Shown in pieces: positions 10,716-62,007 of a stretch of 64,000 nt of DNA (within the stretch, counting starts at the first letter, position 1; every line of letters starts with the position of its first letter). The translations under genes and the position numbers were made by a program. The notes beneath the pieces are model-generated. The model saw nothing but the letters and a program-made list of their open reading frames with translations, did not search any database and had not been told where the DNA came from. This DNA is from Kaistia geumhonensis. Lineage in GTDB: Bacteria; Pseudomonadota; Alphaproteobacteria; Rhizobiales; Kaistiaceae. The stretch spans positions 2,542,001 through 2,606,000 of the forward strand of contig NZ_JAUSWJ010000001.1 in assembly GCF_030815145.1 (NCBI RefSeq), read 5' to 3'.

Positions 10716-10718
10716 CCG

Positions 10719-11045
10719 CTATCTCCCGAAGCCGAGCAGCGAGACCAGGAAGCCGATCGCCGCCGCGATCGCGACATAGACCGGCAGGCGAACCGGCAGC
10801 ATGTCGTCCACCCCGAGCGGGATGAAGATCAGGCGGACGAGCACGGCACCGAGGATCCCCGCCAGCGCACAGGCGAGCCAGGACGGGAAATAGGCCCCGA
10901 ACAGCGCAATCGACGGCGCGCCGGCCGAGACCGTGCAGCCTGACAGCAGCAGGCTCATGGCCGCCGGCGGGCCGAACTGCCTGAGCAGCCTCGCGCCGGG
11001 CGATATGGCTTTGGAGAAATGGCTGGCAGTCGCGGCGTCGCGCAT
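10719..11045 (-). CDS. YtcA-family small lipoprotein, membrane-associated
   Basis: This small protein of about 108 aa has a lipobox LLSGC preceded by a basic segment (GARLLRQFG) and followed by two hydrophobic helices (SIALFGAYFPSWLACALAGIL and a C-terminal LPVYVAIAAAIGFLVSLLGF). This fits YtcA proteins, which accompany HlyD/FUSC/TolC efflux operons; their function is not established. The ATG at 11045 is chosen because an Arg-containing n-region is needed before the lipobox. The inner ATG at 10958 leaves almost no signal peptide, and a longer frame to 11195 reads like non-coding sequence. No clear ribosome binding site supports any choice. Confidence 0.7.
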   Translation of the reverse strand: MRDAATASHFSKAISPGARLLRQFGPPAAMSLLLSGCTVSAGAPSIALFGAYFPSWLACALAGILGAVLVRLIFIPLGVDDMLPVRLPVYVAIAAAIGFLVSLLGFGR

Positions 11046-11561
11046 CGGCGGGGTCCGGTGTGTGGCCGCTGGACCCGATCGGCGGTCGGCTGGGCGCCTC
11101 AGCTTCCGCCCGGAGCGCACTGGACCAACCCACCACGCCACTTCCGCCTCAGGCCCAACAACAATCCTGAGCTTGGACCTTCTAGCACGCGCCATGCTGG
11201 CATGGGTAGCAGGGAGGCGGCAGGCGGCCTGGCACCGTTAACGAAGCGATCCGACGCAACGACGACGCCGATCGCGGTCGGGCTCGCACCTGCCCTCCCC
11301 CTCGCGGGAGGACAAAGAACGAAGCGAACCCTGCTCTTCGGCTGCGGCCTCTTCGGAATTCGGCAATCGGAGACTGCTCGTGACCGACACTTTGCGGGGA
11401 TGAAGTCCCCAGGGCTCCAGGGCGGCGGCCTGTCCTCCCGCCAACCTCCCGGTCGCTCGCCACCCCACGCCCGTCGGAGACCGAACGCCTCGCCGCCCGC
11501 CCTGTCAGCGCCGCCCCGGACGATCCCAATCGTCAACAGGGCTTCCAAAACGGCACTTAAG
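11046..11561. other. Non-coding stretch with short inverted repeats
   Basis: About 500 bases lie between the divergent efflux and importer operons. Open frames here lack ribosome binding sites and have proline/arginine-rich, family-less translations. Two short inverted repeats are visible: CCTCCC/GGGAGG at 11294-11311 and GGGGA/TCCCC at 11396-11410. The efflux-operon promoter should lie here, but I see no convincing -35/-10 pair. The segment may be decayed repeat or gene material. Confidence 0.5.
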
Positions 11562-11577
11562 TTGATAACGATTCATT
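11562..11577. promoter_or_regulatory. Candidate LacI-type operator, site 1
   Basis: TTGATAACGATTCATT, centred on CG, lies 60 bp upstream of the binding-protein start. Its left half matches 7 of 8 bases of the perfect palindrome TTGATATCGATATCAA found at 20236-20251; the right half is degenerate. The LacI-family gene of this cluster (16903-17946) is the likely binder. Confidence 0.45.
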
Positions 11578-11621
11578 TTGGTTGGTGACGCCACCGGCCG
11601 AAAGGATTCTTGGGAGGAATC

Positions 11622-12917
11622 ATGATGTGGAGCATGAAGCCCGTGATCGGGCGGAACCTGCTTGCCCTCGGCGCGGGCATCGCCCTTTCGGCGGCGCTCG
11701 TTCCCGGCGTGCAGGCTGAGGAAGTGAGCGGCGATCTCGTCCTGCTCAACTGGGCATCGGGCTCGGAACTCGAGCTGATCAAGGACCTCGAGGCGGGCTT
11801 CACCGCCAAATATCCGAAGGTCACCTTCAAGAACGCCGATCTCACCGTCCAGGGCGACCAGCGCGGCGCGATCCGCACGGCGCTGCTCGGCGGCGAGAAG
11901 GCGGACCTGCTCGTCAACACCTGGCCGGCCTTCCGCAAGGAACTCGCGGATTCCGGCATGCTGCGCCCCCTCGACAAGCAGTGGGACGACGGCAAGTGGG
12001 GCGAGAATATCGGCGACGGCTGGCGCCAGCTCGGCCAGCTCGACGGCGTCACCTATGGCGTGACCTATACCTTCGGCGACCGCAGCGCGATCTTCTATCG
12101 CCCCGACACGCTGAAGAAGGCCGGCATCGAGGCGCCGGCCACGAGCTGGGACGACTTCAAGGCCGGCTTCGCCAAGCTGAACGGCGTCAGCGTGGTGCCG
12201 ATCGCGGTCCCGGCCAAGGTCTGGGCCCACACCGAGTGGTTCGAGACGCTCCTGCTGCGCACCGCTGGCACCGAGACGGCAGCCAAGCTCGCACGGCACG
12301 AGATCCCGTGGACCGACCCGGTCGTGAAGACGGCGCTCAAGAAGTATGCCGAGCTGCTGCAGGCCAATTGCTGCGGCGAGGCGACGCTCATGCTCGCCAC
12401 CGACTGGGACAACGCCGCCGAGCGCGTCCTCAAGAGCGGAACGGCCGGCTACGAGCTGATCGGCATGTGGGTCAACACCGTCGCCAAGACGGATTACGGC
12501 CTCACCGAGGGCACCGACTATTCGATCTTCCAGTTCCCGGCCCTCGGCATGGGCCATGACGACACGACCAGCGTCGATTCCAAGGAATTCGTCTCGCTCT
12601 CCTCGGGTGGCAACCCGGCGGCGGCCGACGCCTTCCTCGGCTGGCTCGGCACCGCCGAGGCGGCGAACATCGTCGCCAAGCACGGCCTCGCCTCGTCGAG
12701 CAACAAGGTCGACCCGTCGCTCTACGGTCCGGTGACCAAGATCGCCGTCGACGCGGTCATGAAGTCGAAGCCGCAATTCGTGCTCGGCGATCTGCTGCCC
12801 GGCGATCTCGTCGACGAGTATCGCGTGCAGCTGCAGAAGTTCCTGCAGGATCCGAGCGACGCCAATATCGACGCGGTCACGGCCGCCATCGAGGCGAAGG
12901 CGGCGGAAAGCTACTGA
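11622..12917 (+). CDS. Sugar ABC transporter substrate-binding protein (family 1, UgpB/MalE-like)
   Basis: This is a periplasmic solute-binding protein of 431 aa. The signal peptide (about residues 1-33) has a basic start, a hydrophobic core LLALGAGIALSAALV and a cleavage-like AQ/VQA-E region. The mature part begins EEVSGDLVLLNWASGSELELI, typical of family 1 carbohydrate-binding proteins. ATG 11622 is preceded by GGGAGG at 11612-11617 (spacing 4), with a second ATG directly after it. It overlaps the first permease by 1 nt. Given the downstream glycosidases, the ligand is probably an L-fucose- or L-galactose-containing oligosaccharide or the free sugar. The ligand is inference only. The operon carries no ATPase. 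Confidence 0.9.
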   Translation: MMWSMKPVIGRNLLALGAGIALSAALVPGVQAEEVSGDLVLLNWASGSELELIKDLEAGFTAKYPKVTFKNADLTVQGDQRGAIRTALLGGEKADLLVNTWPAFRKELADSGMLRPLDKQWDDGKWGENIGDGWRQLGQLDGVTYGVTYTFGDRSAIFYRPDTLKKAGIEAPATSWDDFKAGFAKLNGVSVVPIAVPAKVWAHTEWFETLLLRTAGTETAAKLARHEIPWTDPVVKTALKKYAELLQANCCGEATLMLATDWDNAAERVLKSGTAGYELIGMWVNTVAKTDYGLTEGTDYSIFQFPALGMGHDDTTSVDSKEFVSLSSGGNPAAADAFLGWLGTAEAANIVAKHGLASSSNKVDPSLYGPVTKIAVDAVMKSKPQFVLGDLLPGDLVDEYRVQLQKFLQDPSDANIDAVTAAIEAKAAESY

Positions 12918-13891
12918 TGCCGTCTTCCGCCCCGTCCGAGGGAGTCCTGCCCGGCGCCGGGCTCCCGAACGGCCGGAATGGCACGAGCGGTCGGCGCAAG
13001 CCGGCCGCCACGGCCAGGAGGCCGATGCCGGAATCGGCCGCCGGCCTCATTCTCATCGCGCCCGTGCTCGTGCTCTTCGCGGTCTCGGTCGTCTATCCAC
13101 TGTTCGACACGATCCGCCTGTCCTTCTACGACATCAAGGGACTCGGCGCCCCGCGCTGGATCGGCATCGGCAACTATCTGAAACTGTTCGCCGATCCCGC
13201 CTTCCGCAAGACGATCTGGACCACCGTCATCTGGACGCTCGCCACCACCTCGATCTCGGTCGGGCTCGGCTGGCTGCTCGCGATGATGTGCTCCTTCGCG
13301 CCGAGGGCGACGCTGCCCTTCCGCGTCATGATCTTCGCGGCCTTCGGCATCTCGGAGGCGGTGAGCGCCTTCATGTGGCTCGGCATCCTGCGCCCCGACC
13401 AGAGCGGCCTGCTCAACGCGCTGCTCGGCGCCATCGGTCTCGGCCAGTTCCAGCATGCCTGGCTCGGCGACCCCAACACCGCCCTCTGGGGCCTCATCGT
13501 CGCGGCGTCATGGGCGCAGGTCGGCCTGCCGCTGATGCTCTGCTTCGCCTCGGTGCAGTCGATCCCGAAGAACGTGCTCGAGGCGGCCGCCATGGACGGC
13601 GCCGGCCCGCGCGCCATGATGCGCTACATCATGATGCCGCTCTCGATGCCCGGCGTGCGCGTCGCGGTGTTCATCAACCTGCTCGGGAGCCTGCGCGCCT
13701 TCGACATCATCTATGTCCTGACGGGCGGCGGCCCCGTCCGCTCGACCGAGACGGTCGGCTTCTTCATGTACCGGGAGTCGATGACGCAGTTCAAACTCGG
13801 CTACGGCGCCGCGGCGACCGTCATCCTGCTCGTCGCCGTGTTCGTCATCTCGGCTCCGGCCATCATCCAGCGCACGGCAGGTGCACGATGA
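12917..13891 (+). CDS. Sugar ABC transporter permease, MalF/UgpA type
   Basis: This is an inner-membrane permease of 324 aa. A Pro/Arg/Gly-rich cytoplasmic N-terminus of about 40 residues precedes six membrane segments. The EAA loop reads NVLEAAAMDGAGPRAMMRYI near residues 218-240. Its ATG shares one base with the stop of the binding-protein gene (TGATG), and its own stop overlaps the next permease start (ATGA). It pairs with the 13888-14709 product. Confidence 0.92.
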   Translation: MPSSAPSEGVLPGAGLPNGRNGTSGRRKPAATARRPMPESAAGLILIAPVLVLFAVSVVYPLFDTIRLSFYDIKGLGAPRWIGIGNYLKLFADPAFRKTIWTTVIWTLATTSISVGLGWLLAMMCSFAPRATLPFRVMIFAAFGISEAVSAFMWLGILRPDQSGLLNALLGAIGLGQFQHAWLGDPNTALWGLIVAASWAQVGLPLMLCFASVQSIPKNVLEAAAMDGAGPRAMMRYIMMPLSMPGVRVAVFINLLGSLRAFDIIYVLTGGGPVRSTETVGFFMYRESMTQFKLGYGAAATVILLVAVFVISAPAIIQRTAGAR

Positions 13892-14709
13892 GCGGACGCG
13901 CGCGCTTCCTCATCACCGCCATCGTGGGCGTGATCGCGGTCATCTGGATGATCCCGGTGATCGGCATCATCGTCCTTTCCATCCGCCCGCCGGCCGAGGT
14001 CGTGCTCGGCTGGTGGCGGCTCGACCATGTGACGCTGACGCTCGACGCCTGGCGCAATGTCTGGTCGAAATATCCGCTGCTCCAGTCGCTGATCACGACC
14101 ATCAAGCTCGCTGGCCTCGCGACGCTGGCCTCGATGCTTCTGACGCCGGCGGCCGCCTATGCATTCCACTTCCTGAAGTTCCCGTTCCGCCGCACGCTGC
14201 TCATCATCATCATCAACGCCTTCGTGCTGCCGCAGCAGGTCGTGGTCATCCCGCTGTTCCAGCTCTGGCGGCAGACGGGGCTGCTCGACAACATCCTCGC
14301 GGTGCTGATCCCCTATGTCGGGCTTTCCTTCGCCTGGTCGATCTTCCTCGTGAAGAACTTCCTGGAGGACTTCCCGAAGGAGCTGATCGAGGCGGCCAAG
14401 ATCGACGGCGCCGGCCCGATCCAGGTCTTCTTCTTCGTGGTCTTGCCGAATTCGGTGACCTCGATCATCGCGGTCGGCATCCTGCAGTTCCTGTGGTGCT
14501 GGAACGCGCTGTTCCTGCCGCTGCTCTTCCTCAGGAGCGACGTGCCGCTGCCCGTCCTGCTCGCCCGTATCGCCGGCACCTATGATCTCAACTGGGACAT
14601 GCGCTCGGTGGCCGCCCTCGTCACGACGATCGTGCCGCTCGCCGTCTTCGTCATCTTCCAGCGCCATTTCGCAGCCGGGGCGCAGACGCGCTCGGGCACC
14701 AAAGAGTGA
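13888..14709 (+). CDS. Sugar ABC transporter permease, MalG/UgpE type
   Basis: This is the partner permease, 273 aa with six predicted membrane segments and EAA loop ELIEAAKIDGAGPIQVFFFV. The ATG at 13888 begins within the stop of the upstream permease (ATGA). A much longer upstream frame exists but only reads the antisense-like shadow of the previous gene. The operon continues into a glycosidase rather than an ATPase, so the importer must borrow an ATPase from elsewhere. Confidence 0.92.
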   Translation: MSGRARFLITAIVGVIAVIWMIPVIGIIVLSIRPPAEVVLGWWRLDHVTLTLDAWRNVWSKYPLLQSLITTIKLAGLATLASMLLTPAAAYAFHFLKFPFRRTLLIIIINAFVLPQQVVVIPLFQLWRQTGLLDNILAVLIPYVGLSFAWSIFLVKNFLEDFPKELIEAAKIDGAGPIQVFFFVVLPNSVTSIIAVGILQFLWCWNALFLPLLFLRSDVPLPVLLARIAGTYDLNWDMRSVAALVTTIVPLAVFVIFQRHFAAGAQTRSGTKE

Positions 14710-14726
14710 CTGCCGAAAGGTCCATC

Positions 14727-16781
14727 ATGTCCGACATCAAGCCGAAGCCGCTCCGCTACCGCCAGATCCATCTCGACTTCCATACCTCGGAGCATATCCC
14801 CGGGATCGGCTCCGCCTTCGACGCCGAGGACTTCGCCAATACGCTGAAGGCGGCGCATGTCGATTCGGTCACGATCTTCGCCAAGTGCCATCACGGCTGG
14901 TCCTATTACCCCACCAATGTCGGCAAGCCGCATCCCCACCTCGCCAAGCCCGACCTGATGGGCGCGATGATCGAGGCCTGCGCCGCGGTCGATATCGAGA
15001 CGCCGGTCTATATCTCGGTGCAATGGGACGAGAATTCCGTCCGCGAGCATCCCGAATGGCGCGCGATGAGCGCGACCAACCGCTTCCAGCATGCGCTGCC
15101 CGGCGATCCGTCGAGCCTCAAGCAATTGTCGCCAGCCTGGCACACACTCTGCCTCAACCATCAGGGCGTGAAGGACTATATCCTCGACCAGGCCCGCGAG
15201 GTCGCCTCGCGCTATGGCAGCAAGGTGCCCGGCCTCTTCTTCGACATCGTGCTGACGCCGGACTGCGTCTGCTCGGCCTGCACGCAGCGCATGCTCGCCG
15301 AGGGTCTCGACCCGGAGAACCCGGCCGACCGGCTGAAGAACGACGAGGCGGTCAACGAGGAGTTCCGCCGCTATGTCTCGGATGCGCTCTTCGCGGAATA
15401 TCCGGCGCTGCGCGTCTTCTACAATTGCGGCCACATCCACAAGCAGGGCCGCCAGCGCTTCCGGACCTACACCCATCTGGAGCTCGAAAGCCTGCCGACC
15501 GGCGGCTGGGGCTATGACCATTTCCCGTCCAGCGCCCGCTATGCCGCGACGCTCGGCATGGATTTCCTCGGCCAGACCGGCAAGTTCCACACGTCATGGG
15601 GCGAGTTCGGCGGCTTCAAGCATCCCGAGGCGCTGATCTACGAGGTCGGCCAGATGGCGGCGCTCGGCGCCAAGTGCCTGGTCGGCGACCAGCTGCATCC
15701 GAACGGCGCGATCAATCACGACACCTATGCCACGATCGCGCCGGCCTATGAGCGGCTCGAGCGGCTGGAGCCCTATCTGAAGGGCGCCAAGCAGGTGTCC
15801 GAGATCGCGATCCTCGCCGCCGAGTTCTTCCATCCCGTGGGGGCGCGCAACAATCCGAGCGACGATGGCGCGGCGCAGATGCTTCAGGAACTGAAGCTGC
15901 CCTTCGACGTGCTCGATGGAACGGCTCCCTTCGACGGCTATCGCCTGCTGATCCTTCCCGATGCGATCACCGTCGATGCCGCGCTGGCGAAGCGGCTCGA
16001 GGCCTTCGTCGCCGGCGGAGGCAAGCTGCTGCTCTCGGGCACGTCCGGGCTGACGGAGACGGGTTTCGCGCTCGACATGGGCCTTGAGAAGTCGAGCGGG
16101 CCGGTTGCGTTCAACCCGTCCTATCTCGTCGCCGATCCGGCGGCGCTCGACGCCAGCCTGCCGAAGGCGCCCTTCGTCATGTATGCCACCGGGCAGACGA
16201 TCAAGCCGGGCGCCGCGACCGTGCTCGCCTCGATCGTGCCGTCCTATTTCAACCGCAGCTACAAGCATTACTGCTCGCACCAGCACACGCCGGACGATCC
16301 GGCGGCGGACACGCTCGGCGCCGGTGTCACCGAGCACAAGGGGATCGGCTACATCGCCTTCCCGATCTTCTCGATGTACCACGACTACGGTCAGCCGCTT
16401 TACAAGTATGTCGTGCGCGGGCTGATCCGCCGCCTGATTCCCGATCCGGTGCTGGCAACCGATCTCCCTTCGGCCGGCCGCGCCACGCTGGCCCGCCAGG
16501 AAACGGAGAAGCGACATGTGCTGCATCTCCTCTATGGCGCCCCGCAGGTGCGCGGCAAGGCGGTGCCCACCGACACCGGAACGCGCGTGCTCGAGATGAT
16601 CGAGGACATCCCGGCGATCGGGCCGGTCACCGCCAGCGTCAAGCTCGCCGGCACGCCGAGCCGCGTCTATGACGCGCTCAGCGGCGAGGATGTCGCCTGG
16701 AAGGCGGAGGAGGACGGCCGCATCGCCGTGACGCTGCCGCGCCTGCACATCCACAGCGCCGTCGTCATCGAAGGCGTCTAG
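14727..16781 (+). CDS. GHL6/GH151-like glycoside hydrolase with beta-galactosidase trimerisation-like domain (putative alpha-L-fucosidase)
   Basis: This 684-aa cytoplasmic protein has no signal peptide. The N-terminal (beta/alpha)8-type region (about 1-360) begins RQIHLDFHTSEHIPGIGSAF and contains FAKCHHGWSYYPT and GLFFDIVLTPDCVCSAC, which I associate with 'hypothetical glycosyl hydrolase 6' proteins. The middle (about 365-460) looks like the GH42 trimerisation, GATase-like fold (AILAAEFFHPVG ... GGKLLLSGTSGLT). GH151 alpha-L-fucosidases share this architecture as far as I recall; that link is from memory, not a search. ATG 14727 has AAAGG 7-8 nt upstream; a GTG at 14706 overlapping the permease stop is the alternative. 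Co-transcription with the importer suggests hydrolysis of imported oligosaccharide. Confidence 0.6.
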   Translation: MSDIKPKPLRYRQIHLDFHTSEHIPGIGSAFDAEDFANTLKAAHVDSVTIFAKCHHGWSYYPTNVGKPHPHLAKPDLMGAMIEACAAVDIETPVYISVQWDENSVREHPEWRAMSATNRFQHALPGDPSSLKQLSPAWHTLCLNHQGVKDYILDQAREVASRYGSKVPGLFFDIVLTPDCVCSACTQRMLAEGLDPENPADRLKNDEAVNEEFRRYVSDALFAEYPALRVFYNCGHIHKQGRQRFRTYTHLELESLPTGGWGYDHFPSSARYAATLGMDFLGQTGKFHTSWGEFGGFKHPEALIYEVGQMAALGAKCLVGDQLHPNGAINHDTYATIAPAYERLERLEPYLKGAKQVSEIAILAAEFFHPVGARNNPSDDGAAQMLQELKLPFDVLDGTAPFDGYRLLILPDAITVDAALAKRLEAFVAGGGKLLLSGTSGLTETGFALDMGLEKSSGPVAFNPSYLVADPAALDASLPKAPFVMYATGQTIKPGAATVLASIVPSYFNRSYKHYCSHQHTPDDPAADTLGAGVTEHKGIGYIAFPIFSMYHDYGQPLYKYVVRGLIRRLIPDPVLATDLPSAGRATLARQETEKRHVLHLLYGAPQVRGKAVPTDTGTRVLEMIEDIPAIGPVTASVKLAGTPSRVYDALSGEDVAWKAEEDGRIAVTLPRLHIHSAVVIEGV

Positions 16782-16799
16782 ACGATCCACCGAGACGTC

Positions 16800-16831
16800 A
16801 TGCGGCGGGCGGGACGCCCGTTCCGCCGCAT
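16800..16831. terminator. Inverted repeat between glycosidase and LacI genes
   Basis: A 9-bp perfect stem, ATGCGGCGG (16800-16808) / CCGCCGCAT (16823-16831), lies 19 nt after the glycosidase stop with an inner GGG/CCC pairing. There is no T-run. It probably separates the importer operon transcript from the regulator gene or stabilises the upstream mRNA end. Confidence 0.4.
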
Positions 16832-16902
16832 GGCACGTGCCGGCTGCTTGGGCTAGAAGGACAGCATCCCTGTCGTTCAGGGAAAGGAGCCGCCGCCTGA
16901 TC

Positions 16903-17946
16903 ATGACAGACGAGGAGTTTCCGGCCGCCGGGCCGCGGCGCAAGGCGGCCACCATCGCCGATGTTGCCGAAGTTGCCGGTGTCGCCATCGGCACGGTGTC
17001 GCGCTTCCTGAACGGACGGGAGATTCGCCGCGGCAACCGGCAGCAGATCGAGGCGGCGATCGAAAAGCTCTCCTACCGCCGCAACGCGGTCGCGGCGGCG
17101 ATGAAGACCGACCGCACGCATATGATCGGCGTGCTGATTCCGACCTTCGACGAGTTCCATGCCCAGATGGTGGAGCGCCTTTCGGCGCAGCTCCGGTCCA
17201 CGGGCCGCGCCCTCGTCATGTATTTCCACGGCCACGAGCCGCAGGTCTTTGCCGACGCGCTCGATTTCTTCACCCAGCAGCGCGTCGACGGCCTCATCAT
17301 GGACAGCGTGCAGGGCATGCGCCAGCGCGTCGAGGCCGTGATCGCCGAGGGCATCCCCGTGGTGCTCTACAACAACGACATCACCGGCGTCGTCGCCGAC
17401 CGCGTCGCGGTCGAGAACGCCGCCGTCAGCCAGCGCGTGGTCGGCCATCTGCTCGATCTCGGCCATGAGCGCGTCGCGATGATCAGCGGCGACCTCGTCG
17501 ATTCCTCGGCGCGCCAGCGCCTGGACGGCTACGAGGCGGCGCTGCGCGAGTGCGGCATCGCCGTCGATCCGGCCTATATCGTCGGCGGCTACTGGCGGGC
17601 GGAGGGCGGCTACGAGGCGGCGCGCCAGCTGATGCAGCTGCCGAAACCGCCGACCGCCATCTTCGCCGCCAATTACGGCATGGCGATCGGCGTCCTGATG
17701 TGGATGAAGAACAACGGCCTCCACCTGCCGGCCGATCTTTCGCTGATCAGCTTCGACGACGTGCCGCTGTTCCGCCTGCACGAGCCGGGCATCACCGCGA
17801 TCGCGCAGCCGATCAACGGCATCGCGGATTCGATCGCCAACCTGCTCGTCGCCCGGCTCGGGCCGGGCGAGACCCGGCCGTTCCGCTCGATCACGCTCGG
17901 CTGCGACATCATCCTGCGCGGCTCCGCCGGCCGGCCGCGTCGCTGA
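16903..17946 (+). CDS. LacI family transcriptional regulator
   Basis: This is a DNA-binding repressor of 347 aa. The N-terminal HTH reads ATIADVAEVAGVAIGTVSRFLNG (about residues 14-36), with the typical hinge region containing AVAAAMKT, followed by a periplasmic-binding-protein-like effector domain (IGVLIPTFDEFHAQMV ... LISFDDVPLF). ATG 16903 has GGAAAGGAGC upstream; a longer frame from 16837 has no domain support. It lies between the glycosidase and, convergently 3 nt away, the GH95 gene. Three candidate operators (11562, 20236, 22499) precede the importer, the GH95 gene and the dehydrogenase/isomerase pair, so it probably represses all of them until the sugar effector binds. Confidence 0.92.
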   Translation: MTDEEFPAAGPRRKAATIADVAEVAGVAIGTVSRFLNGREIRRGNRQQIEAAIEKLSYRRNAVAAAMKTDRTHMIGVLIPTFDEFHAQMVERLSAQLRSTGRALVMYFHGHEPQVFADALDFFTQQRVDGLIMDSVQGMRQRVEAVIAEGIPVVLYNNDITGVVADRVAVENAAVSQRVVGHLLDLGHERVAMISGDLVDSSARQRLDGYEAALRECGIAVDPAYIVGGYWRAEGGYEAARQLMQLPKPPTAIFAANYGMAIGVLMWMKNNGLHLPADLSLISFDDVPLFRLHEPGITAIAQPINGIADSIANLLVARLGPGETRPFRSITLGCDIILRGSAGRPRR

Positions 17947-17949
17947 GCC

Positions 17950-20172
17950 CTACAGCAGCCGGCGTGTCTCGCCGGCGGCGAGCGTCACGGGCATGAGCGC
18001 GCCGCCGAAGCGGACATCGAGCGCGATCGCCTTCGCCGCATGGAGGACGATCCCGGTCGGGACGCCGTCCGCCCAGTCGAGATCGACGGTCAGGCCGCCC
18101 CGCGCGCCGACACCGGCGACCTTTCCCTTCGGCCAGGCCGGCGGCAGCGCCGGCAGCAGCAGCAATTCGCCCGGCTTCGACTGCACGATCATCTCGATGA
18201 TACCGGCGGCGCCGCCGAAATTGCCGTCGATCTGGAAGGGCGGATGCGCATCGAAGAGATTGGGATAGCTGCGCTCGGGATGGAGCAGCAGCGCCAGCAC
18301 GTCATGGGCATGCGCGCCGTCGCGCAGCCGCGCCCAGAGATTGATGCGCCAGCCGATGCCCCAGCCGGTCGCATCGTCGCCGCGGATCTCCAGCGAGCGC
18401 CGCGCCGCGGCGGCGCGTTCCGGCGTCGTGTCGGGATCGATCTGCCAGGACGGATAGACCGCGTAGAGATGCGAGACATGGCGGTGATGGATCTCCGGGA
18501 CATCGAGGTCCCAGTCCTCCAGCCATTCCTGCAACTGGCCGGCGGCGCCGATGCGGTCGGCGGGAAGCCGGGGGAGCAGCGCCTCCAGTTCGGCGGCGAA
18601 GGCCTCGTCGCGGCCGAGCCGCCGCGCGGTCGCGGCGGTCCGCGAGAAGAGGTCGCGCGCGATCTGGCTGTCCATGGCCGGCCCGGCGCAGATGCTGGCG
18701 CCGTTCGGATGCACGTTCTCGGGCGAGACGGAGGGGTTGGTGACGAGAAGATCGGTGCCCGGCAGCGGCACCAGAACGGCGCGCAGGAACTCGGCCGCGC
18801 CCTTCATCAGGGGGTAGATGCGCCCGAGGACCGCATCGTCCCCGCGATAATCGGCGTGGTCGTGCAACTGGACGCAGAGCCAGGCGCCGCCCGTCGGCCA
18901 GAGGCCCCATTGCGCGCCGTCGATCGGCCCGGTGGCCCGCCACAGGTCGGTGTTGTGGTGCAGCACCCAGCCCGGCGCGTCGTAATGCGCGCGCGCCATG
19001 ACGGCGCCGGTCTCGGAGAGATCCTCGACCATGGCGATCAGCGGCTCGAAGCACGCGCCGAGACCGGCGAGGTCCGGCAGCCAGTAGTTCATCTGCAGGT
19101 TGATGTTGGCGGTGTACTTGCTGTCCCAGGGCGGCTGGACCTCCTCGTTCCAGAGTCCCTGCAGATTGGCCGGCTGCGTTCCAGGGCGGGACGACGACAC
19201 CATGAGATAGCGGCCATACTGGACATAAAGCGCCGCGAGCGCCGCATCGCCGCCCTCGGCGAAGCCGGCGATGCGCTCGTCCGTCGGCAGTTCCGCCGCC
19301 GCGCTCGTGCCGAGATCGATCGCGAAGCCGCCGAAGAGCCGCCGATGCTCGGCCACATGGCGGGCCCTGAGGTCTGCCCAGCGTCCGGCGGAGAGGTCCA
19401 TCAGACCGGCATCGACGCGCGCCATCGGATCGCCGTCGACCCGGTCGAAGCGCACGAAGCTGGTCGCCGCATTGATGGCGACGAGCGCCTCGGTCGCGCC
19501 CTCGACGCGGATGCCGTCGGCGCCGACCATGCAGTCGCCGCCCTCCGTCAGCACGCGCGCCTTGACGGCGAAGCGGAGCACGCCGGCGATGCCGTGCGCA
19601 TCCGGTCCTTTGCCGGCAAATCCGATCCAGTCGCGGCCGGGCGGCATCATCGCGCCCTGCTGCGGGCTCTCGAGGGTCAGGCGGAAGGCAAGCGCGCCCG
19701 GCCGGTCGGAGGCAACCCGCATCAGGATCACGTCGTCCGCCGGAGAGGCGATGAGCTCGCGGGTGTAGGTGACGCCGCCGGCGCGGTAGCGCGTCGTCGC
19801 CGCCGCGTCGTCCAGCGACAGGCCGCGGCGATAGTCCTCCGCGCCGTCATGGCCGAAGTCGATAAAGACATCGCCGATCGGCTGGTAGGACATCTGCTTG
19901 ATCGGCTTCGCCATCAGGCAGCGATTGGCGAGCGCCTCCGCCTCGGCATGCCGGCCGGCGAAGATCAGGCCGCGCACCTCTTCCAGATGCGGCAGAGCTT
20001 CAGGATTGACCGGCTGGTAGGGACCGCCCGCCCAGAAGGTGCTCTCGTTCAGCTGCAGCCGCTCGCGCCCGACGCCGCCGAACACCATGGCGCCCAATCG
20101 CCCGTTGCCGACCGGCAGCGCCTCGGTCCACGCCACCGCCGGCCGACGATACCAGAGATCCCACGGAGCCAT
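17950..20172 (-). CDS. GH95 family glycoside hydrolase (alpha-L-fucosidase or alpha-L-galactosidase)
   Basis: This 740-aa cytoplasmic enzyme has no signal peptide. The N-terminal beta domain starts WYRRPAVAWTEALPVGNGRLGAMVFGG and contains LNESTFWAGGPY, diagnostic of GH95. The (alpha/alpha)6 catalytic domain has NLQGLWNEE, KYTANINLQMNYW (N356, N358), NPSVSPEN (E485), HHRHVSHLYAVYP and FQIDGNFGG (D649). By family knowledge these blocks carry the general acid Glu and the Asn/Asp catalytic set of inverting 1,2-alpha-L-fucosidases; my residue assignment is approximate. Some GH95 members are alpha-L-galactosidases, and the neighbouring L-galactonate-type enzymes make that a real possibility. AAGGGG precedes the ATG at 20172. 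A perfect palindromic operator sits 64 bp upstream. Confidence 0.9.
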   Translation of the reverse strand: MAPWDLWYRRPAVAWTEALPVGNGRLGAMVFGGVGRERLQLNESTFWAGGPYQPVNPEALPHLEEVRGLIFAGRHAEAEALANRCLMAKPIKQMSYQPIGDVFIDFGHDGAEDYRRGLSLDDAAATTRYRAGGVTYTRELIASPADDVILMRVASDRPGALAFRLTLESPQQGAMMPPGRDWIGFAGKGPDAHGIAGVLRFAVKARVLTEGGDCMVGADGIRVEGATEALVAINAATSFVRFDRVDGDPMARVDAGLMDLSAGRWADLRARHVAEHRRLFGGFAIDLGTSAAAELPTDERIAGFAEGGDAALAALYVQYGRYLMVSSSRPGTQPANLQGLWNEEVQPPWDSKYTANINLQMNYWLPDLAGLGACFEPLIAMVEDLSETGAVMARAHYDAPGWVLHHNTDLWRATGPIDGAQWGLWPTGGAWLCVQLHDHADYRGDDAVLGRIYPLMKGAAEFLRAVLVPLPGTDLLVTNPSVSPENVHPNGASICAGPAMDSQIARDLFSRTAATARRLGRDEAFAAELEALLPRLPADRIGAAGQLQEWLEDWDLDVPEIHHRHVSHLYAVYPSWQIDPDTTPERAAAARRSLEIRGDDATGWGIGWRINLWARLRDGAHAHDVLALLLHPERSYPNLFDAHPPFQIDGNFGGAAGIIEMIVQSKPGELLLLPALPPAWPKGKVAGVGARGGLTVDLDWADGVPTGIVLHAAKAIALDVRFGGALMPVTLAAGETRRLL

Positions 20173-20235
20173 CGGTCCAACCCCTTCTGAATGACCCGGC
20201 GACCATGCGGAACGGTCGGCCGCCCGTCAACGAAA

Positions 20236-20251
20236 TTGATATCGATATCAA
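20236..20251. promoter_or_regulatory. Perfect 16-bp LacI-type palindromic operator, site 2
   Basis: TTGATATCGATATCAA is its own reverse complement, is centred on CG as usual for LacI-family sites, and sits 64 bp upstream of the GH95 start within a 120-bp gap after the reductase gene. Related sequences occur at 11562-11577 and 22499-22514. Confidence 0.7.
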
Positions 20252-20292
20252 CTACCGTCGATATCTCCCCGTTTCCGCGCGCGCGGCCAGCT

Positions 20293-21399
20293 TCAGCCGG
20301 CAATGTCGGGAAATGTCGCGCCGAGCATGGGAAATGTTGAAGAATGTCCGGTCGATGTTGCGAAGCGGACAAGCCCGCCGGCGCGCCTGTCGATCTTGGC
20401 GGCGTGGTTCTGCGCGATGTCGGCGAGGCGGTGATCGAGGAACGGATTGGCGAAACGGTCGAGTGTCACCGCGAAATAGGCCGCGATTTCGTCCTGCCGG
20501 TCGCCGAAGGCCGGGATCACCTCGCTGCGCATGATCGTCTCCAGCCAGGCCCGGACGGCCGGATCGGCGATGATCTCGCGCACCGTCTCGTCCTGCCGCC
20601 GGCCCTCGCGCAGCCAGCGATCGGCCAGCAGAGTATGGCCGAGATTGAGCACGAAGAGCTTGCGCCGCTCGATGAAATCGAGGTCGTCGACCACCTGGAT
20701 GTCGGTGTGCCGACAGGGCGGAACCAGCCCCGGCATCGCCCGGATCGCCCACAGCGCATAGGGTTCGGCGACGGCGCCGACCGGCTCGATGGGCGCCGAG
20801 ACGATGCGGTCGACCAGCGAATCGACGAAGCGGCATTCGGCGGCGAGCCAGCTGCGAAAGGCCTGCGGCAGCCCGCCCCGGACCGCTAGGGCGTCGACCA
20901 GCGCCGCAAGCCGCGCCCCGTTGCGCTCGACGAGTTCGCAGGGGAACAGTGTCATGCCGCCGCCGCCCGCCTCGAAGCGATGAAAGAGCAGCGCGGTCAG
21001 CAGCTCCGGAAAGGTGCTCCAGCCCTCCAGCGTCGGGACGGGCGTTTCGGGGACGTCATAGCCACGGTCGCCGGTATTGCTGACCACCGTCGACACTGGC
21101 CCGGCGAAGAGCGCCGCCAGCCGCGCCGCATCCTCGCGCGCCGACAGCCCGTCCGAAATGACTGAAACCTGCCGTTCCTCGTCGACCGGCTTGCCGTCGA
21201 CGAGGCCGCGGATGCGCACCGGATAGGGCTTCCCTTCGCGGAAGGCGGCGATGCGGGCGCGGGAGGCCGGCGAGCCGGTCGTCTCGACCACCGTGACGCG
21301 GCCGACATCCTGGCCCGCCGCGGCGGCCTCCGAGAGCATCAGGTCGACATGGGCCTGCAGGAAGCGGCTGGTCCCGAACTGGATGATCGGCGCGGCCAT
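20293..21399 (-). CDS. Mannitol dehydrogenase family oxidoreductase (tagaturonate/fructuronate reductase-like)
   Basis: This 368-aa NAD(P)-dependent polyol/hexonate dehydrogenase belongs to the long-chain mannitol dehydrogenase family (UxaB, UxuB). The N-terminal nucleotide-binding motif is IIQFGTSRFLQAHVDLM, the internal VVSNTGDRGY matches the family VTLTITEKGY region, and the catalytic block is RRKLFVLNLGHTLLAD with the Lys/Asn/His signature. It is shorter than enterobacterial UxaB (about 480 aa), with a reduced C-terminal domain. ATG 21399 shares one base with the stop of the dehydrogenase gene upstream (TGATG), so the pair is coupled. With an LgoD-like partner, the likely reaction is tagaturonate to altronate; this is inferred. 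Confidence 0.82.
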   Translation of the reverse strand: MAAPIIQFGTSRFLQAHVDLMLSEAAAAGQDVGRVTVVETTGSPASRARIAAFREGKPYPVRIRGLVDGKPVDEERQVSVISDGLSAREDAARLAALFAGPVSTVVSNTGDRGYDVPETPVPTLEGWSTFPELLTALLFHRFEAGGGGMTLFPCELVERNGARLAALVDALAVRGGLPQAFRSWLAAECRFVDSLVDRIVSAPIEPVGAVAEPYALWAIRAMPGLVPPCRHTDIQVVDDLDFIERRKLFVLNLGHTLLADRWLREGRRQDETVREIIADPAVRAWLETIMRSEVIPAFGDRQDEIAAYFAVTLDRFANPFLDHRLADIAQNHAAKIDRRAGGLVRFATSTGHSSTFPMLGATFPDIAG

Positions 21400-22406
21400 C
21401 ACGAGACGCTCACCATGGCCTTGATCAGGCTGCTGCGGTCGCGGGCCCATTCGGCCATCACCGCCGGGAAATCCTCCATCGTCGTGCGATGGGTGATCAG
21501 CTTGCGATGGTCGATGCTGCCGTCTGCGAGCGCGGCGACCACGGTCGCGAAATCCTCCGATGTGGCGTTGCGACTCGCCAACAGCGTGGCCTCGCGCTTG
21601 TGGAATTCGGCATCGTTGAAGGTGATGTCGTCCGGGACGACCCCGACCATGACATAGCTGCCGCCATGCGCCAGATAGCCGAAGCTCGCCTGCATGGCGC
21701 GCGGATTGCCGGTGGCGTCGAAGACGGTATCGAAGCCGTCGCCTTCGGTCGCGGCTGCGACCAGTGCCGCAGGATCGCCGGCGACATGCGTGTTGGCGAA
21801 GCCGAAGCGGTCCGCCACCATGGCCAGCCGTTCCGCGCTCGCATCGACGAGATGCAGTTCCGCGCCCCGCCGGCGGGCAAAGAGCGCAGCCCCGAGGCCG
21901 ATCGGGCCTGCGCCGACCACCAGCACGCGGTCGGCCGCACCGAGGCCGGAACGGCGCACCGCATGGGCCCCGATCGCCAGGAACTCGACGGTTGCCGCGG
22001 CCTCCTCGTCGAGATCGCCGGCCGCGATCAGGTTGATCGCCGGCACGTTGATCCGCTCGCACAGCCCGCCGTCGCGATGCACGCCGAGCACGCCGATGCG
22101 CATGCAGCAATTGGGCTTGCCGCGCATGCAGGCATGGCAGGTGCCGCAGGCGACATAGGGATTGATGATGACGCGCGTCCCCGCCTTCCAGCCCTCGCTA
22201 TCGGAGGCGACGACGCCGGACAGCTCGTGGCCGATCACCCGGGGATAGACGAGGAAGGGATGCTTGCCTTCGAAGATGTGGTAGTCGGTGCCGCAGATCC
22301 CGACCCGCGCGATATCGATCGCCACCCAGCCCGGTGCCGGCGCCTCGGCAGCCGGCCGCTCGGCAAGGCTGATTGAGCCCGGTTTCTCCACCACGATGGC
22401 ACGCAT
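21399..22406 (-). CDS. Zinc-dependent alcohol dehydrogenase, LgoD-like (L-galactonate 5-dehydrogenase type)
   Basis: This 335-aa medium-chain dehydrogenase has the catalytic zinc ligands Cys38 (GICGTD), His60 and Glu61, the structural zinc Cys87, Cys90, Cys93 and Cys101 (ACGTCHACMRGKPNCC), and the NAD motif VVGAGPIGLGAA. Segments such as IGVLGVHRDGG, EFHKREATLLASRNA and YPRVIGHE resemble E. coli LgoD (YjjN), which oxidises L-galactonate to D-tagaturonate. Together with the downstream tagaturonate-reductase-like enzyme this forms a plausible two-step route from L-galactonate to D-altronate, or the 6-deoxy analogue from L-fuconate. The ribosome binding site AGGAAGGAG precedes the ATG at 22406; longer frames upstream are non-coding. 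A LacI-type operator lies 93 bp upstream. Confidence 0.82.
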   Translation of the reverse strand: MRAIVVEKPGSISLAERPAAEAPAPGWVAIDIARVGICGTDYHIFEGKHPFLVYPRVIGHELSGVVASDSEGWKAGTRVIINPYVACGTCHACMRGKPNCCMRIGVLGVHRDGGLCERINVPAINLIAAGDLDEEAAATVEFLAIGAHAVRRSGLGAADRVLVVGAGPIGLGAALFARRRGAELHLVDASAERLAMVADRFGFANTHVAGDPAALVAAATEGDGFDTVFDATGNPRAMQASFGYLAHGGSYVMVGVVPDDITFNDAEFHKREATLLASRNATSEDFATVVAALADGSIDHRKLITHRTTMEDFPAVMAEWARDRSSLIKAMVSVS

Positions 22407-22498
22407 CGACGTCGCTCCTTCCTGCCCGAATCCGGCCCTCGATGTCCCGAGGAGAGGCCGGCGTTCCCACTGCAATGACAGCGACAAAGCATGCAAGT

Positions 22499-22514
22499 TT
22501 GATATCGTTGTCAA
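22499..22514. promoter_or_regulatory. LacI-type operator, site 3, in the divergent promoter region
   Basis: TTGATATCGTTGTCAA matches 14 of 16 positions of the perfect palindrome at 20236-20251. It lies between the divergent LgoD-like gene (start 22406) and the AGE isomerase gene (start 22658), so one site could control both directions. Confidence 0.6.
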
Positions 22515-22657: not shown

Positions 22658-23926
22658 ATGGCGGTTGAGACAGCAACCTGGATCGGCACCGGCGGCAGCG
22701 ATTTGGTGGCGCGCCCCGGCCATCGCGACTGGCTGAAGAGCCAGGCCGGCGATCTGATCGCCTTCTTCCAGAAATCCGCGCTCAACCCGGCCGGCGGCTT
22801 CTTCGCGCTCGACGATGCCGGTCAGCCGCTGCCCCCGCCCGGCCCCGGCGGCACGGTGCGCTATCTGCACGAGACGACGCGCATGGTGCACTGCTTCGCC
22901 ATCGCCCATCTCATCGGCCTGCCGGGCGCCGACCGCATGGTCGACCATGGCATGGCCTTCCTGCGCAGCCATCACGAGGACAAGAAGGAGGGCGGCTGGT
23001 TCTGGGGCGTCGATGACCATGGCCCGACCAATGCCACCAAGCAGGCCTATGGCCATGCCTTCGTGCTGCTGGCCGGCTCGTCGGCCAAGGTCGTCGGTCA
23101 TCCCGGCGCCGACAGCCTGATCGCCGACGCGACCGAAGTGCTCCTCAGCCACTTCTGGGACGACGCCGCCGGCGCGACGACCGAGGAATACACCGCCGAC
23201 TGGCAGCCGCTCGGCCCCTATCGCGGCCAGAACTCCAACATGCACCTCACCGAGGCGCTGATGGCGGCCTTCGAGGCGACCGGCCAGCAGCGCTATCTCG
23301 ACATGGCCGGCCGCATCGCTGCGCTGATCATCGGCAAGCATGCCCGCGCCGAAGGCTGGCGGGTGGCCGAGCATTTCCGCGCCGACTGGAGCGTCGACCG
23401 CGACTATGAGGGCGATCCGATGTTCCGCCCGGCAGGAACGACACCCGGCCATGCGCTGGAATGGAGCCGGCTGCTGGTGCAGCTCTGGGAGTTCGGCGGG
23501 CGCCGCGAGGAATGGCTGATCGAGGCGGCGCGGTCGCTGTTCCTGCGCACCTGCGAGATCGGCTGGGACGGGTCGCGCGGCGGCTTCTACTACACTCTCG
23601 ACTGGCAGGATCGGCCGGCCCGTTCGGATCGTTACTGGTGGCCCTGCGCGGAAGGGATCGGCGCGGCCGCCGTCCTGCGCCAGACCGGCGGCGATGCGCG
23701 GTTCGAGGAATGGTATCGCCGCATCTGGGACTTCACCGCTCGTCACCTGATCGATCCGCGCCACGGCGGCTGGTATCCGGAGATCGACGACGAGCTGAAG
23801 CCGGTCTCGCGCGTCTTCGTCGGCCGGCCGGACCTCTATCATTCGCTGCAGGCCTGCCTCATCCCGCTGCTGCCGGCGAGCGGCAGCATCACACGCGGTC
23901 TCGCCGCCGAAGCCGGCCAGCTCTGA
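22658..23926 (+). CDS. AGE family epimerase/isomerase (YihS / mannose isomerase type)
   Basis: This 422-aa cytoplasmic (alpha/alpha)6-barrel enzyme belongs to the N-acylglucosamine 2-epimerase superfamily. Motifs typical of YihS/mannose isomerase proteins are visible: RYLHETTRMVH, KEGGWFWGVDDHG, QNSNMHLTEALMAAFEAT, WRVAEHF, GTTPGHALEWSRLL, RYWWPCAEG and GGWYPEID. The His and Glu/Arg residues in these blocks normally catalyse aldose-ketose isomerisation at C2 (mannose/fructose, lyxose/xylulose or sulfoquinovose). ATG 22658 has AGGGAGAG upstream. It is the first gene of the plus-strand run to 27714 and shares a control region with the LgoD-like gene. No sulfoquinovose transporter or sulfoquinovosidase is nearby, so a neutral aldose is more likely. 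Confidence 0.87.
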   Translation: MAVETATWIGTGGSDLVARPGHRDWLKSQAGDLIAFFQKSALNPAGGFFALDDAGQPLPPPGPGGTVRYLHETTRMVHCFAIAHLIGLPGADRMVDHGMAFLRSHHEDKKEGGWFWGVDDHGPTNATKQAYGHAFVLLAGSSAKVVGHPGADSLIADATEVLLSHFWDDAAGATTEEYTADWQPLGPYRGQNSNMHLTEALMAAFEATGQQRYLDMAGRIAALIIGKHARAEGWRVAEHFRADWSVDRDYEGDPMFRPAGTTPGHALEWSRLLVQLWEFGGRREEWLIEAARSLFLRTCEIGWDGSRGGFYYTLDWQDRPARSDRYWWPCAEGIGAAAVLRQTGGDARFEEWYRRIWDFTARHLIDPRHGGWYPEIDDELKPVSRVFVGRPDLYHSLQACLIPLLPASGSITRGLAAEAGQL

Positions 23927-23942
23927 CGGGACGTTGACGGCG

Positions 23943-23967
23943 GCCGTCCGGCGCCGAGCCGGACGGC
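23943..23967 (+). terminator. Hairpin between AGE isomerase and aldo/keto reductase genes
   Basis: This is a perfect 10-bp stem, GCCGTCCGGC / GCCGGACGGC, with a 5-nt loop, 16 nt after the isomerase stop and 21 nt before the next start. There is no T-run. It is more likely a processing or attenuating hairpin inside the operon than a full stop. Confidence 0.4.
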
Positions 23968-23988
23968 TCGGCGATGAGGACGACCGGC

Positions 23989-24975: not shown

Positions 24976-25027
24976 CCGGCCTCGGGAGGAGCCACCGGTC
25001 GCCGGGAACCAGGACGGGAGGACCGCC

Positions 25028-25849: not shown

Positions 25850-25856
25850 GCCGCCA

Positions 25857-26099
25857 CTGAAGCACTGGAAGGACCGGCTCTATGCCATCCAGGTCAAGGA
25901 CACCGCGCCGCCCGGCACCACGGCCGAAGGCGGCTGGACCCCGATGGGCGATGGCATCGTCGACTGGGCGGCGCCGTGGCCGCTGTTCCCCGAGACGCCG
26001 GCCGATCATCTCGTCGTCGAGCACGACGAACCGGCGGACTGGCGGACCCTTGCACAGCGCTCCTACGACACTCTCGTCAAGCTCGGCGCGCGCGGCTGA
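25857..26099 (+). pseudogene. C-terminal remnant of a sugar phosphate isomerase/epimerase (TIM barrel)
   Basis: Directly after the DUF1080 stop, in a different frame, 80 codons read LKHWKDRLYAIQVKDTAPPG ... ADHLVVEHDEPADWRTLAQRSYDTL and end at a TGA. This matches the end of xylose-isomerase-like TIM-barrel sugar isomerases: the last barrel strand with its metal-ligand region, and the usual 'VEHDxPxDW' C-terminus. No in-frame start with a ribosome binding site precedes it, and the first three quarters of the gene are missing. A deletion that fused the end of the DUF1080 gene to this remnant is the simplest explanation. Confidence 0.75.
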
Positions 26100-26141
26100 C
26101 GCCGGCACGCCTCCCGTCCCCTCGAAGCAAGGAGCCGCATC

Positions 26142-27050: not shown

Positions 27051-27081
27051 GCCGGCACCATTCCCTTCGAAGGAGAGCCCC

Positions 27082-35844: not shown

Positions 35845-35865
35845 GCCGGTTTCGTGATATCTGTG

Positions 35866-35903: not shown

Positions 35904-35929
35904 TTCGCTTTTGTGCGTTTCGGAGCGCC

Positions 35930-61203: not shown

Positions 61204-61232
61204 GATGGTCCCGTCGGGTTGCTTCTCGGCCG

Positions 61233-61979: not shown

Positions 61980-62007
61980 GGCTTCCTCCGGGGATTCGTG
62001 AGTCGGC

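Follow-up and report, generated by a model that had tools for sequence, protein, structure and literature searches.

The window, a 64,000-nucleotide stretch of Kaistia geumhonensis DNA, contains a compact block of carbohydrate-related genes (Table 1). The sequence-only reading had placed an importer without ATPase, a GHL6/GH151 glycosidase, a LacI regulator, a GH95 glycosidase, a UxaB-like reductase and an LgoD-like dehydrogenase in this one block, and this description is confirmed, every gene that it named being intact and where it had been placed. No ATPase gene was found among the block genes at 11562-22514. In related loci, an ABC ATPase gene lies between the LacI and GH95 genes (identified with Pfam in genome G222, and with BLAST and by eye in G179); it has the same position in the core loci of R. 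johnstonii and Sinorhizobium, where it is annotated ugpC. The block as delimited in that reading, 11562-22514, starts exactly where an operator-like half-site starts and stops exactly where an operator-like palindrome stops. A promoter scan returned 0 sites against 1.1 expected.

Table 1. Genes and candidate operators of the block, in window coordinates
Feature	Position	Strand	Basis or remark
Degenerate LacI operator candidate TTGATAACGATTCATT	11562..11577	.	Upstream of importer; good fit in left half only
ABC importer solute-binding protein (SBP_bac_1)	11622..12917	+	Pfam PF01547, 63.8 bits; signal-peptide-like N-terminus by eye
ABC permease 1	12917..13891	+	Pfam PF00528, 49.6 bits
ABC permease 2	13888..14709	+	Pfam PF00528, 68.2 bits (scored on longer ORF)
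GH151 (GHL6) glycosidase, alpha-L-fucosidase family	14727..16781	+	PF14871, 99.1 bits; no signal peptide by eye
LacI-family regulator	16903..17946	+	PF00356 and PF13377
GH95 glycosidase	17950..20172	-	PF22124, 532 bits; no signal peptide by eye
Operator candidate, perfect 16-bp palindrome TTGATATCGATATCAA	20236..20251	.	63 bp upstream of GH95 start
UxaB-like reductase, short (368 aa)	20293..21399	-	NF002969 (tagaturonate reductase) at 197.6 bits; cutoff 359
LgoD-like Zn-dependent dehydrogenase (MDR)	21399..22406	-	PF08240 and PF00107
Second operator candidate TTGATATCGTTGTCAA	22499..22514	.	92 bp upstream of dehydrogenase start; 143 bp upstream of divergent epimerase-family gene

The candidate operators would tie the two halves of the block together. 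The palindrome upstream of the GH95 gene is the sole exact copy in the 4.59-Mb genome, and with up to 2 mismatches the 16-mer occurs at two places only, before the GH95 gene and before the LgoD/UxaB-like pair, while its reversed control at that level had none in the genome. With up to 3 mismatches, 2 sites were found in the window against 0.02 expected (100 shuffles); these occurrences are not due to chance. The 14-mer TGAYAWCGWTRTCA is present exactly only at the 20236 and 22499 sites (zero-order expectation 0.026). The loci proposed elsewhere in this genome for the AKR, the amidohydrolase and the dehydratase have no copy of it, either exact or with 1 mismatch. Allowing up to 2 mismatches gave 87 genome sites versus 2 for the reversed control, a level that is uninformative; among the sites listed, which reach to 2.96 Mb, the one at 451416 lies about 2 kb before the AKR-amidohydrolase pair of this genome. 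The candidates at 20236 and 22499 are both conserved in the sister genome G130. Upstream of the solute-binding protein gene, the half-site TGATAACG[AT]T is also present in G130, G222, G179, R. johnstonii 3841 and Sinorhizobium sp. B11, and G222 has a full palindrome there, TGATAACGTTGTCA. LacI relatives share 48-95% identity in five core loci and 66% in G099. The putative operators are strong at two transcription units and degenerate at the importer, and their sharing by the GH95 gene and the LgoD/UxaB-like pair supports the earlier proposal of a regulon, here a predicted LacI regulon.

The importer-GH151-LacI-GH95 core was found in four (this genome included) of the eight genomes with GH151 matches, among 249 genomes of the order, as well as on R. 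johnstonii 3841 pRL12 and Sinorhizobium p1 (two records), and it is frequent on Rhizobium plasmids. Our literature search found no paper describing it. The pRL12 locus (RL_RS33490-RS33520) has the solute-binding protein, two permeases, GH151, LacI and GH95 in the order seen here, with identities of 71-72% for GH151, 62% for GH95 and 58% for LacI. In contrast to the Kaistia locus, it includes the UgpC ATPase gene and its GH95 gene is co-directional with the rest; an LgoD/UxaB-like pair is not annotated in that 30-kb stretch, and the AKR that follows the core is not of the L-galactose-dehydrogenase type. The core loci of G179, G222, R. johnstonii and Sinorhizobium are all without a UxaB-like gene. 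In G130 the operators, the dehydrogenase and GH95 are kept and the UxaB-like gene is lost except for a start-like remnant, with no other UxaB-like match in that genome at E<=1e-30. In G099 a GH151 gene (79%) and a dehydrogenase gene (56% identical) lie about 6.6 kb apart, and in G179 a GH29 L-fucosidase gene stands beside the core locus.

Both glycosidases belong to fucosidase families and are apparently cytoplasmic. GH151 aligns with ALfuk2 (PDB 6TVK) over residues 9-683 of 685 (505 bits), and its D173, E254 and H518 correspond to ALfuk2 D154, E235 and H503, which the available part of the source names as nucleophile, acid/base and partner residue, respectively. For GH95, the best PDB match was 7kmq (924 bits), which we infer to be XacAfc95; the alpha-L-galactosidase BACOVA_03438 (4ufc, 634 bits) scored far below it. 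Domain architecture, catalytic residues and the Thr at the disputed position are common to all three proteins, but BACOVA_03438 is periplasmic whereas no signal peptide is visible here. GH95 retains its catalytic domain, the two Asn of the active site and the general acid: T354, N356, N358 and E485 (the last counted by hand) align to BACOVA_03438 T370, N372, N374 and E501. This active-site comparison, suggested in the sequence-only reading, finds the catalytic residues kept and Thr instead of His at the disputed specificity position, T370 of BACOVA_03438. We do not take Thr354 as proof of L-galactose specificity; the residue is not diagnostic, because XacAfc95 is a fucose-specific alpha-1,2-L-fucosidase although it carries Thr. 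The closest characterised relatives of both enzymes are L-fucosidases; L-galactose is a plausible candidate for the released sugar.

It is a serious possibility, if not a probable one, that this is an alpha-L-fucoside locus. Both glycosidases would then be plain L-fucosidases (acting on xyloglucan oligosaccharides, for example), L-fucose would be degraded by a non-phosphorylating pathway whose genes lie elsewhere, and the task of the LgoD/UxaB-like pair would be another residue of the same oligosaccharide or a side product. The fucose-specific best match of GH95 fits this, as do the GH29 gene adjoining the G179 core locus, the lack of the UxaB-like gene in core loci elsewhere and its loss in G130. 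For GH151, the portion of the review available describes alpha-L-fucosidase activity only (EC 3.2.1.51). Moreover, the genome encodes a GD_AH dehydratase of two subunits, the large one sharing 72% identity with a counterpart encoded next to a Caulobacter GH95 gene, and the Campylobacter L-fucose cluster, in the part of its description available, also has a two-gene GD_AH set, a likeness by architecture alone (PMC9100392). A search of the genome for GH29 gave a single match, below cutoff, which is the GH151 gene itself, and an MR_MLE_C search for L-fuconate dehydratase gave 16, 15 of them above cutoff, too many to assign. What the fucoside explanation leaves unaccounted for is that the pair and GH95 share the same candidate operator; to our knowledge, no L-fucose pathway includes an LgoD/UxaB-like pair.

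The pair itself would fit a route for L-galactose acids. Compared with six E. coli MDR paralogues, in a tree without a resolved LgoD branch, the dehydrogenase is closest to LgoD (41%, 239 bits), followed by RspB (31%, 152 bits), YdjJ (121 bits), IdnD (96), YdjL (79) and Ahr (57). Its best NCBIfam model, NF007489, named only Zn-dependent oxidoreductase, scores 195.7 bits, below the cutoff of 376. The reductase matches E. coli UxaB at 29.7% identity and 120 bits versus 66 bits for UxuB; E. coli UxaB is 115 residues longer, and the NF002969 match stops at profile position 370 of 482. Since the 11 relatives called as genes likewise have 365-388 aa, we regard the reductase as a member of a short subfamily and not as a broken gene. 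The proposed LgoD-like and UxaB-like identities are supported insofar as these are the nearest of the E. coli proteins compared and relatives of the pair keep company with pathway genes; they are weakened by scores below both NCBIfam cutoffs and by the 30% identity to UxaB. In E. coli, where LgoD, UxaB and UxaA form the L-galactonate route, the genes are apart, and lgoD has lgoR and lgoT, which encodes a symporter, as neighbours.

Neighbours of 21 further UxaB-like loci, within some 9 kb on either side, were counted by tblastn, since automatic gene calls included wrong-strand ORFs; ORF unk351 in locus L107, for instance, was discarded as an antisense artefact of an amidohydrolase on the opposite strand. 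The dehydrogenase, at a threshold of at least 45% identity, is present in 15 of the 21, compared with 1 of 80 GH95 loci, and missing from the other 6. None of the 21 has GH95, GH151 or GH29; a GD_AH (UxaA/GarD) dehydratase occurs in 5, an AKR of L-galactose-dehydrogenase type (assigned from the best PDB matches of the one in L107) in 4 and an amidohydrolase in 3. Candidates for the aldose dehydrogenase, lactonase and dehydratase are absent from the window block and accompany the pair in L107 and L191. Pairs with an AKR, an amidohydrolase and a UxaA-family dehydratase are predicted to form an L-galactose pathway. In the Kaistia genome, candidates lie at separate loci, a dehydratase at about 3.086 Mb (70% identity to that of G218) and an AKR adjoining an amidohydrolase at about 0.454 Mb. 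Two AKRs in the window were rejected as the missing L-galactose dehydrogenase: that at 23974-24975 has General stress protein 69 as best PDB match and no L-galactose dehydrogenase among 23 PDB matches at E<=1e-20, and that at 35930-36949 is only 23-25% identical to that group (Pfam, NCBIfam, BLAST).

The pair might instead act on another aldonate, but we consider this quite unlikely. One option is L-gluconate, which Paracoccus 43P converts by way of 5-keto-L-gluconate and D-idonate; the other is L-gulonate, in an RspB-type route that passes through D-fructuronate to D-mannonate, with ManD. In 43P, LgnH/LgnI carry out this chemistry on the epimer at C4, according to the available portion of the source (PMC12632266). 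The best PDB match of the dehydrogenase is RspB, and a ManD gene above cutoff lies at 62008-63219. However, LgoD is nearer than RspB and UxaB nearer than UxuB, which also opposes the L-gulonate/ManD route, and a GD_AH dehydratase accompanies the pair in 5 of the 21 relatives (a count that covers GD_AH alone). We know of no GH95 or GH151 enzyme that releases L-glucose or L-gulose.

The chemistry proposed here, in which L-galactonate would be converted to D-altronate, has a counterpart in the LguA-E pathway for L-glucose and L-galactose of Luteolibacter LG18. In the available part of that paper, it comprises an L-galactose-dehydrogenase-group enzyme, an aldonate 5-dehydrogenase, a tagaturonate reductase and an altronate dehydratase; the genes lie together, their regulator is interpreted as an activator, complete sets of orthologs are reported in Luteolibacter only and, unlike the window locus, the cluster legend lists no glycosidase or importer (PMC12632266). 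Two recurrent modules, the glycosidase core and the LgoD/UxaB-like pair, are joined in the window, a combination that looks new. The novelty claimed for a bacterial L-galactoside regulon stands in this narrower sense, as publications on the breakdown of L-galactose and L-galactonate by bacteria already exist and the core is common on Rhizobium plasmids.

From the gene content, catalytic residues, operator-like sites and recurrence of both modules established above, we infer the substrate, transport specificity, repression and all enzyme activities as follows. The ABC importer, driven by an ATPase encoded elsewhere, would take up a short oligosaccharide that ends in an alpha-linked sugar of L-galacto configuration. 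In the cytoplasm, GH151 and GH95 would cut off this terminal alpha-L-fucosyl or alpha-L-galactosyl group. LacI, freed by the substrate or by a product, would cease to repress the GH95 gene, the operon of importer and GH151, and that of the LgoD/UxaB-like pair. The pair would then invert C5 of the L-galactose aldonate, turning L-galactonate into D-tagaturonate and this into D-altronate, while other chromosomal loci would provide the aldose dehydrogenase, the lactonase and the UxaA-family dehydratase. On balance, we hold a LacI-type regulon for an L-galacto-terminal oligosaccharide with such a C5 inversion to be somewhat probable. Of what was first suggested, glycosidases of fucosidase families that are apparently cytoplasmic and an LgoD/UxaB-like pair are supported; an L-galactose-specific assignment is not, the nearest characterised glycosidases being L-fucosidases. 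More doubtful is the narrower idea of a dedicated alphaproteobacterial alpha-L-galactoside regulon, in which LacI would sense a plant oligosaccharide that carries L-galactose, one or both of GH151 and GH95 would be cytoplasmic alpha-L-galactosidases and L-galactose would itself enter the route through L-galactonate.

Little published work on the use of L-galactose by soil or root bacteria is known to us. The sugar occurs in some glycans of plant cell walls, such as rhamnogalacturonan II, and in mucilages. It is also present in complex cereal xylan (PMC4491172). If the narrower idea were true, alpha-L-galactosidase would be a new activity for GH151, and the stand-alone AKR-amidohydrolase-LgoD-UxaB-UxaA-type operons of relatives would be L-galactose pathways without L-glucose epimerase, which the Luteolibacter authors, in the part of their paper available, state were not found (PMC12632266). 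The locus also has a sister in R. johnstonii 3841, a model strain in which the glycosidase half would be readily accessible. One candidate operator would link two glycosidase families, one of debated specificity, to an oxidative route for L-galactose acids.

The block at 11562-22514 has the composition claimed for it by the sequence-only reading: importer, GHL6/GH151 glycosidase, LacI regulator, GH95 glycosidase, UxaB-like reductase and LgoD-like dehydrogenase were all confirmed. The window (G+C 68%) spans positions 2,542,001-2,606,000 of a single-contig genome of 4,587,821 bases. No signal peptide was seen by eye in GH151 or GH95, so that both enzymes should act in the cytoplasm.

Features of the window and their positions
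Position	Strand	Feature
6318-7805	-	gene adjoining the three following genes (region 6318-11195)
7802-9682	-	FUSC-type efflux pump (by eye)
9666-10715	-	HlyD-type adaptor (by eye)
10719-11195	-	DUF1656-like small protein (by eye)
11562-22514	+	in order: solute-binding protein, two permeases, GHL6/GH151, LacI regulator
11562-22514	-	in order after LacI: GH95, UxaB-like reductase, Zn-dependent dehydrogenase
11562-11577		candidate operator, importer
20236-20251		candidate operator, GH95
22499-22514		candidate operator, dehydrogenase
22658-27714		AGE epimerase-family, AKR (aldo-keto reductase), DUF1080, PD40 and F420/NADP-oxidoreductase-like genes, divergent from the dehydrogenase operator
34513-38738		second ABC block, without a visible ATPase: binding protein, then an AKR gene, and two permeases
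59129-63219		acid-sugar cluster: ManD (695 bits, above cutoff), second galactonate-dehydratase-like enolase, RraA-type aldolase, SMP-30 lactonase family gene

The LacI-type operator candidate TTGATATCGATATCAA lies 63 bp upstream of the GH95 start, and TTGATATCGTTGTCAA lies 92 bp upstream of the dehydrogenase start, between this gene and a divergent epimerase-family gene. With up to three mismatches, the 16-mer has two sites in the window versus 0.02 expected (100 shuffles); with up to two, the two sites of the whole genome are those of GH95 and the dehydrogenase (reversed control, 0). The looser 14-mer TGAYAWCGWTRTCA is found exactly at these two genome sites only, and one mismatch adds a single further site, at 2188903. 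Such candidate operators, common to GH95 and the LgoD/UxaB-like pair, strengthen the earlier proposal of a single regulon. The site upstream of the importer is degenerate, and its left half alone fits well. A similar half-site precedes the importer in the sister genome G130, G179, Rhizobium johnstonii 3841 and Sinorhizobium sp. B11, and in G222 the corresponding element is a full palindrome, TGATAACGTTGTCA. Since no 14-mer site with up to two mismatches was found in the core operon or its upstream gap in R. johnstonii and Sinorhizobium, the operator footprint there rests on the half-site. The LacI of G099, 66% identical to that of the window, adjoins this genome's own dehydrogenase-reductase pair; the 19.9-kb stretch contains a single 16-mer match, with four mismatches, and the distance from it to the LacI gene is about 4 kb; there is no nearer match. 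The divergent genes at 22658-27714 may belong to the same LacI regulon. Their order is the same in G130; the epimerase-family gene scored 393 bits against a D-mannose-isomerase model (under the cutoff of 600), and DUF1080 is a 3-keto-disaccharide hydrolase family.

Against E. coli LgoD the dehydrogenase scored 239 bits (41% identity), versus 152 bits for RspB (31%), 121 for YdjJ, 96 for IdnD, 79 for YdjL and 57 for Ahr; the reductase scored 120 bits with UxaB (29.7%) and 66 bits with UxuB. The affinity to LgoD and UxaB rests on these scores, because the E. coli branches are long and unresolved in the trees. UxaB-like genes occur in 16/249 genomes of the order at E<=1e-30 and in 5/385 of the class at E<=1e-60, our own counted in both. 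Outside the window, 21 UxaB-like loci were compared (15 from the order set, 4 from the class set and 2 from 53 plasmid records): 15 of them have a dehydrogenase with 45% identity or more to that of the window, which was not found in L103, L108, L109, L110, L167 and L190. The background was 1 of 80 GH95 loci, some of them short; with the limit relaxed, two more GH95 loci come in, L023 through a dehydrogenase of 43% identity and L027 through a reductase of 30%. The 21 loci also contain a GntR regulator (10), a ribose-type sugar-binding protein (9), a UxaA/GarD-family dehydratase, GD_AH (5), an AKR of the type found in locus L107 (4) and an amidohydrolase (3). Importer, dehydrogenase, dehydratase, DUF4432, amidohydrolase, reductase and AKR genes stand together in L107 (G058), while L191 (G299) has importer, AKR, amidohydrolase, dehydrogenase, reductase and dehydratase. 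The best four PDB matches of the L107 AKR are L-galactose dehydrogenases. Read most simply, such operons would import L-galactose or a near relative and oxidise it through steps of the LgoD and UxaB type. E. coli UxaA and GarD lie at much the same distance from the GD_AH proteins, so altronate is their presumed substrate.

Other genomes carry the core as well. GH151 has a match at E<=1e-30 in 8 of the 249 genomes of the order (own counted), and the complete set of importer, GH151, LacI and GH95 is found in four: our own, G130, G179 and G222. An ABC ATPase gene lies between LacI and GH95 in G179 and G222, and a GH29 gene adjoins the importer in G179. In the plasmid collection, GH151 has matches in 27 records and GH95 in 77; for both proteins, 26 records fall at 60-80% identity. 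Among named records, Rhizobium and Sinorhizobium plasmids have the core locus nearest to ours. R. johnstonii 3841 pRL12 and Sinorhizobium sp. B11 p1 carry importer, GH151, LacI, UgpC and GH95. Because related core loci carry an ABC ATPase or UgpC, the window block seems to have lost its ATPase gene; the importer would presumably be powered by an ATPase borrowed from elsewhere. In G099, the GH151 gene (79% identical) is separate from GH95 and LacI, beside another importer and about 6.6 kb from a dehydrogenase 56% identical to ours. The pRL12 locus (106131-115827) places the importer-GH151-LacI-UgpC-GH95 arrangement in a model strain, where GH151 is annotated merely as a beta-galactosidase trimerization domain protein; PMC11406972 mentions a different L-fucosidase gene of R. 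leguminosarum, pRL100274, on another replicon.

The window GH151 matches PDB 6TVK, named alpha-L-fucosidase, over its whole length (505 bits). Its D173, E254 and H518, counted on the alignment, correspond to the nucleophile D154, the acid/base E235 and H503 from the neighbouring subunit, as given for ALfuk2 in the review PMC10154630. GH95 scored 924 bits against 7kmq, which we infer to be the fucosidase XacAfc95, and 634 bits against 4ufc, the alpha-L-galactosidase BACOVA_03438. Its T354, N356 and N358 equal T370, N372 and N374 of BACOVA_03438, and E485 equals E501 (counted on the alignment); the active-site motif is identical across the six GH95 sequences compared, including ours. The active-site comparison proposed earlier matched the catalytic residues, and Thr354 gave no guide to L-galactose specificity: this Thr had been proposed as a marker of GH95 L-galactosidases, yet XacAfc95 has it and is fucose-specific, so that the GH95 sequence leaves L-galactose versus L-fucose undecided.

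Several observations count against L-galactose. The G130 proteins of the block are 90-98% identical to those of the window, but between the dehydrogenase and GH95 a gap of some 200 bp (L134:6657-6863) contains only a start-like reductase remnant (FGxGRFLQ motif), and at E<=1e-30 no UxaB-like match was found anywhere in G130; this reductase absence is evidence against L-galactose. Likewise, the dehydrogenase after GH95 in G222 is more distant (34% identical), the pair is not annotated in the R. johnstonii pRL12 and Sinorhizobium p1 loci, and tblastn found GH95, GH151 and GH29 in 0/21 UxaB-like loci. In Caulobacter sp. 602-2, a 17.6-kb locus (L015) combines GH95 with a 48-50% identical LgoD-like dehydrogenase, an L107-type AKR, an amidohydrolase, GD_AH, an SDR-like gene and, by eye, a FucP-like transporter; the contig ends at this locus. 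The set is compatible with L-fucose no less than with L-galactose, because the L-fucose cluster of Campylobacter includes GD_AH as two genes, a likeness of gene content; Cj0483 is reported there as not essential for L-fucose use (PMC9100392).

Elsewhere in the genome, a GD_AH near 3.086 Mb has a ribokinase-family gene and a ribose-type importer as neighbours; it is 70% identical to the G218 protein, whose gene has an LgoD/UxaB-like dehydrogenase and reductase within some 6 kb. An AKR at about 0.454 Mb adjoins an amidohydrolase, and its best five PDB matches are L-galactose dehydrogenases (top 76.9 bits). Neither place has a 14-mer copy, exact or with one mismatch. A second, two-subunit GD_AH at about 1.91 Mb (L189), with another sugar importer (by eye), could possibly form a separate operon for L-fucose or another acid sugar; an RraA-type aldolase and a GntR regulator were seen alongside by eye.

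Bacterial L-galactose catabolism is known from Luteolibacter LG18 and, by a citation in the same paper, from Phocaeicola vulgatus (PMC12632266). Luteolibacter LguA is reported there to have no activity on L-fucose, and the authors found no organism that has every orthologue except lguG. Among the open-licence matches listed, judged by title and start of abstract, none dealt with a GH151/GH95 locus of rhizobia or with an L-galactoside regulon of Alphaproteobacteria. To conclude, use of an L-galacto-configured glycoside is likely from sequence; between the two sugars, we lean towards L-galactose over L-fucose, solely because the LgoD/UxaB-like pair appears to be co-regulated.
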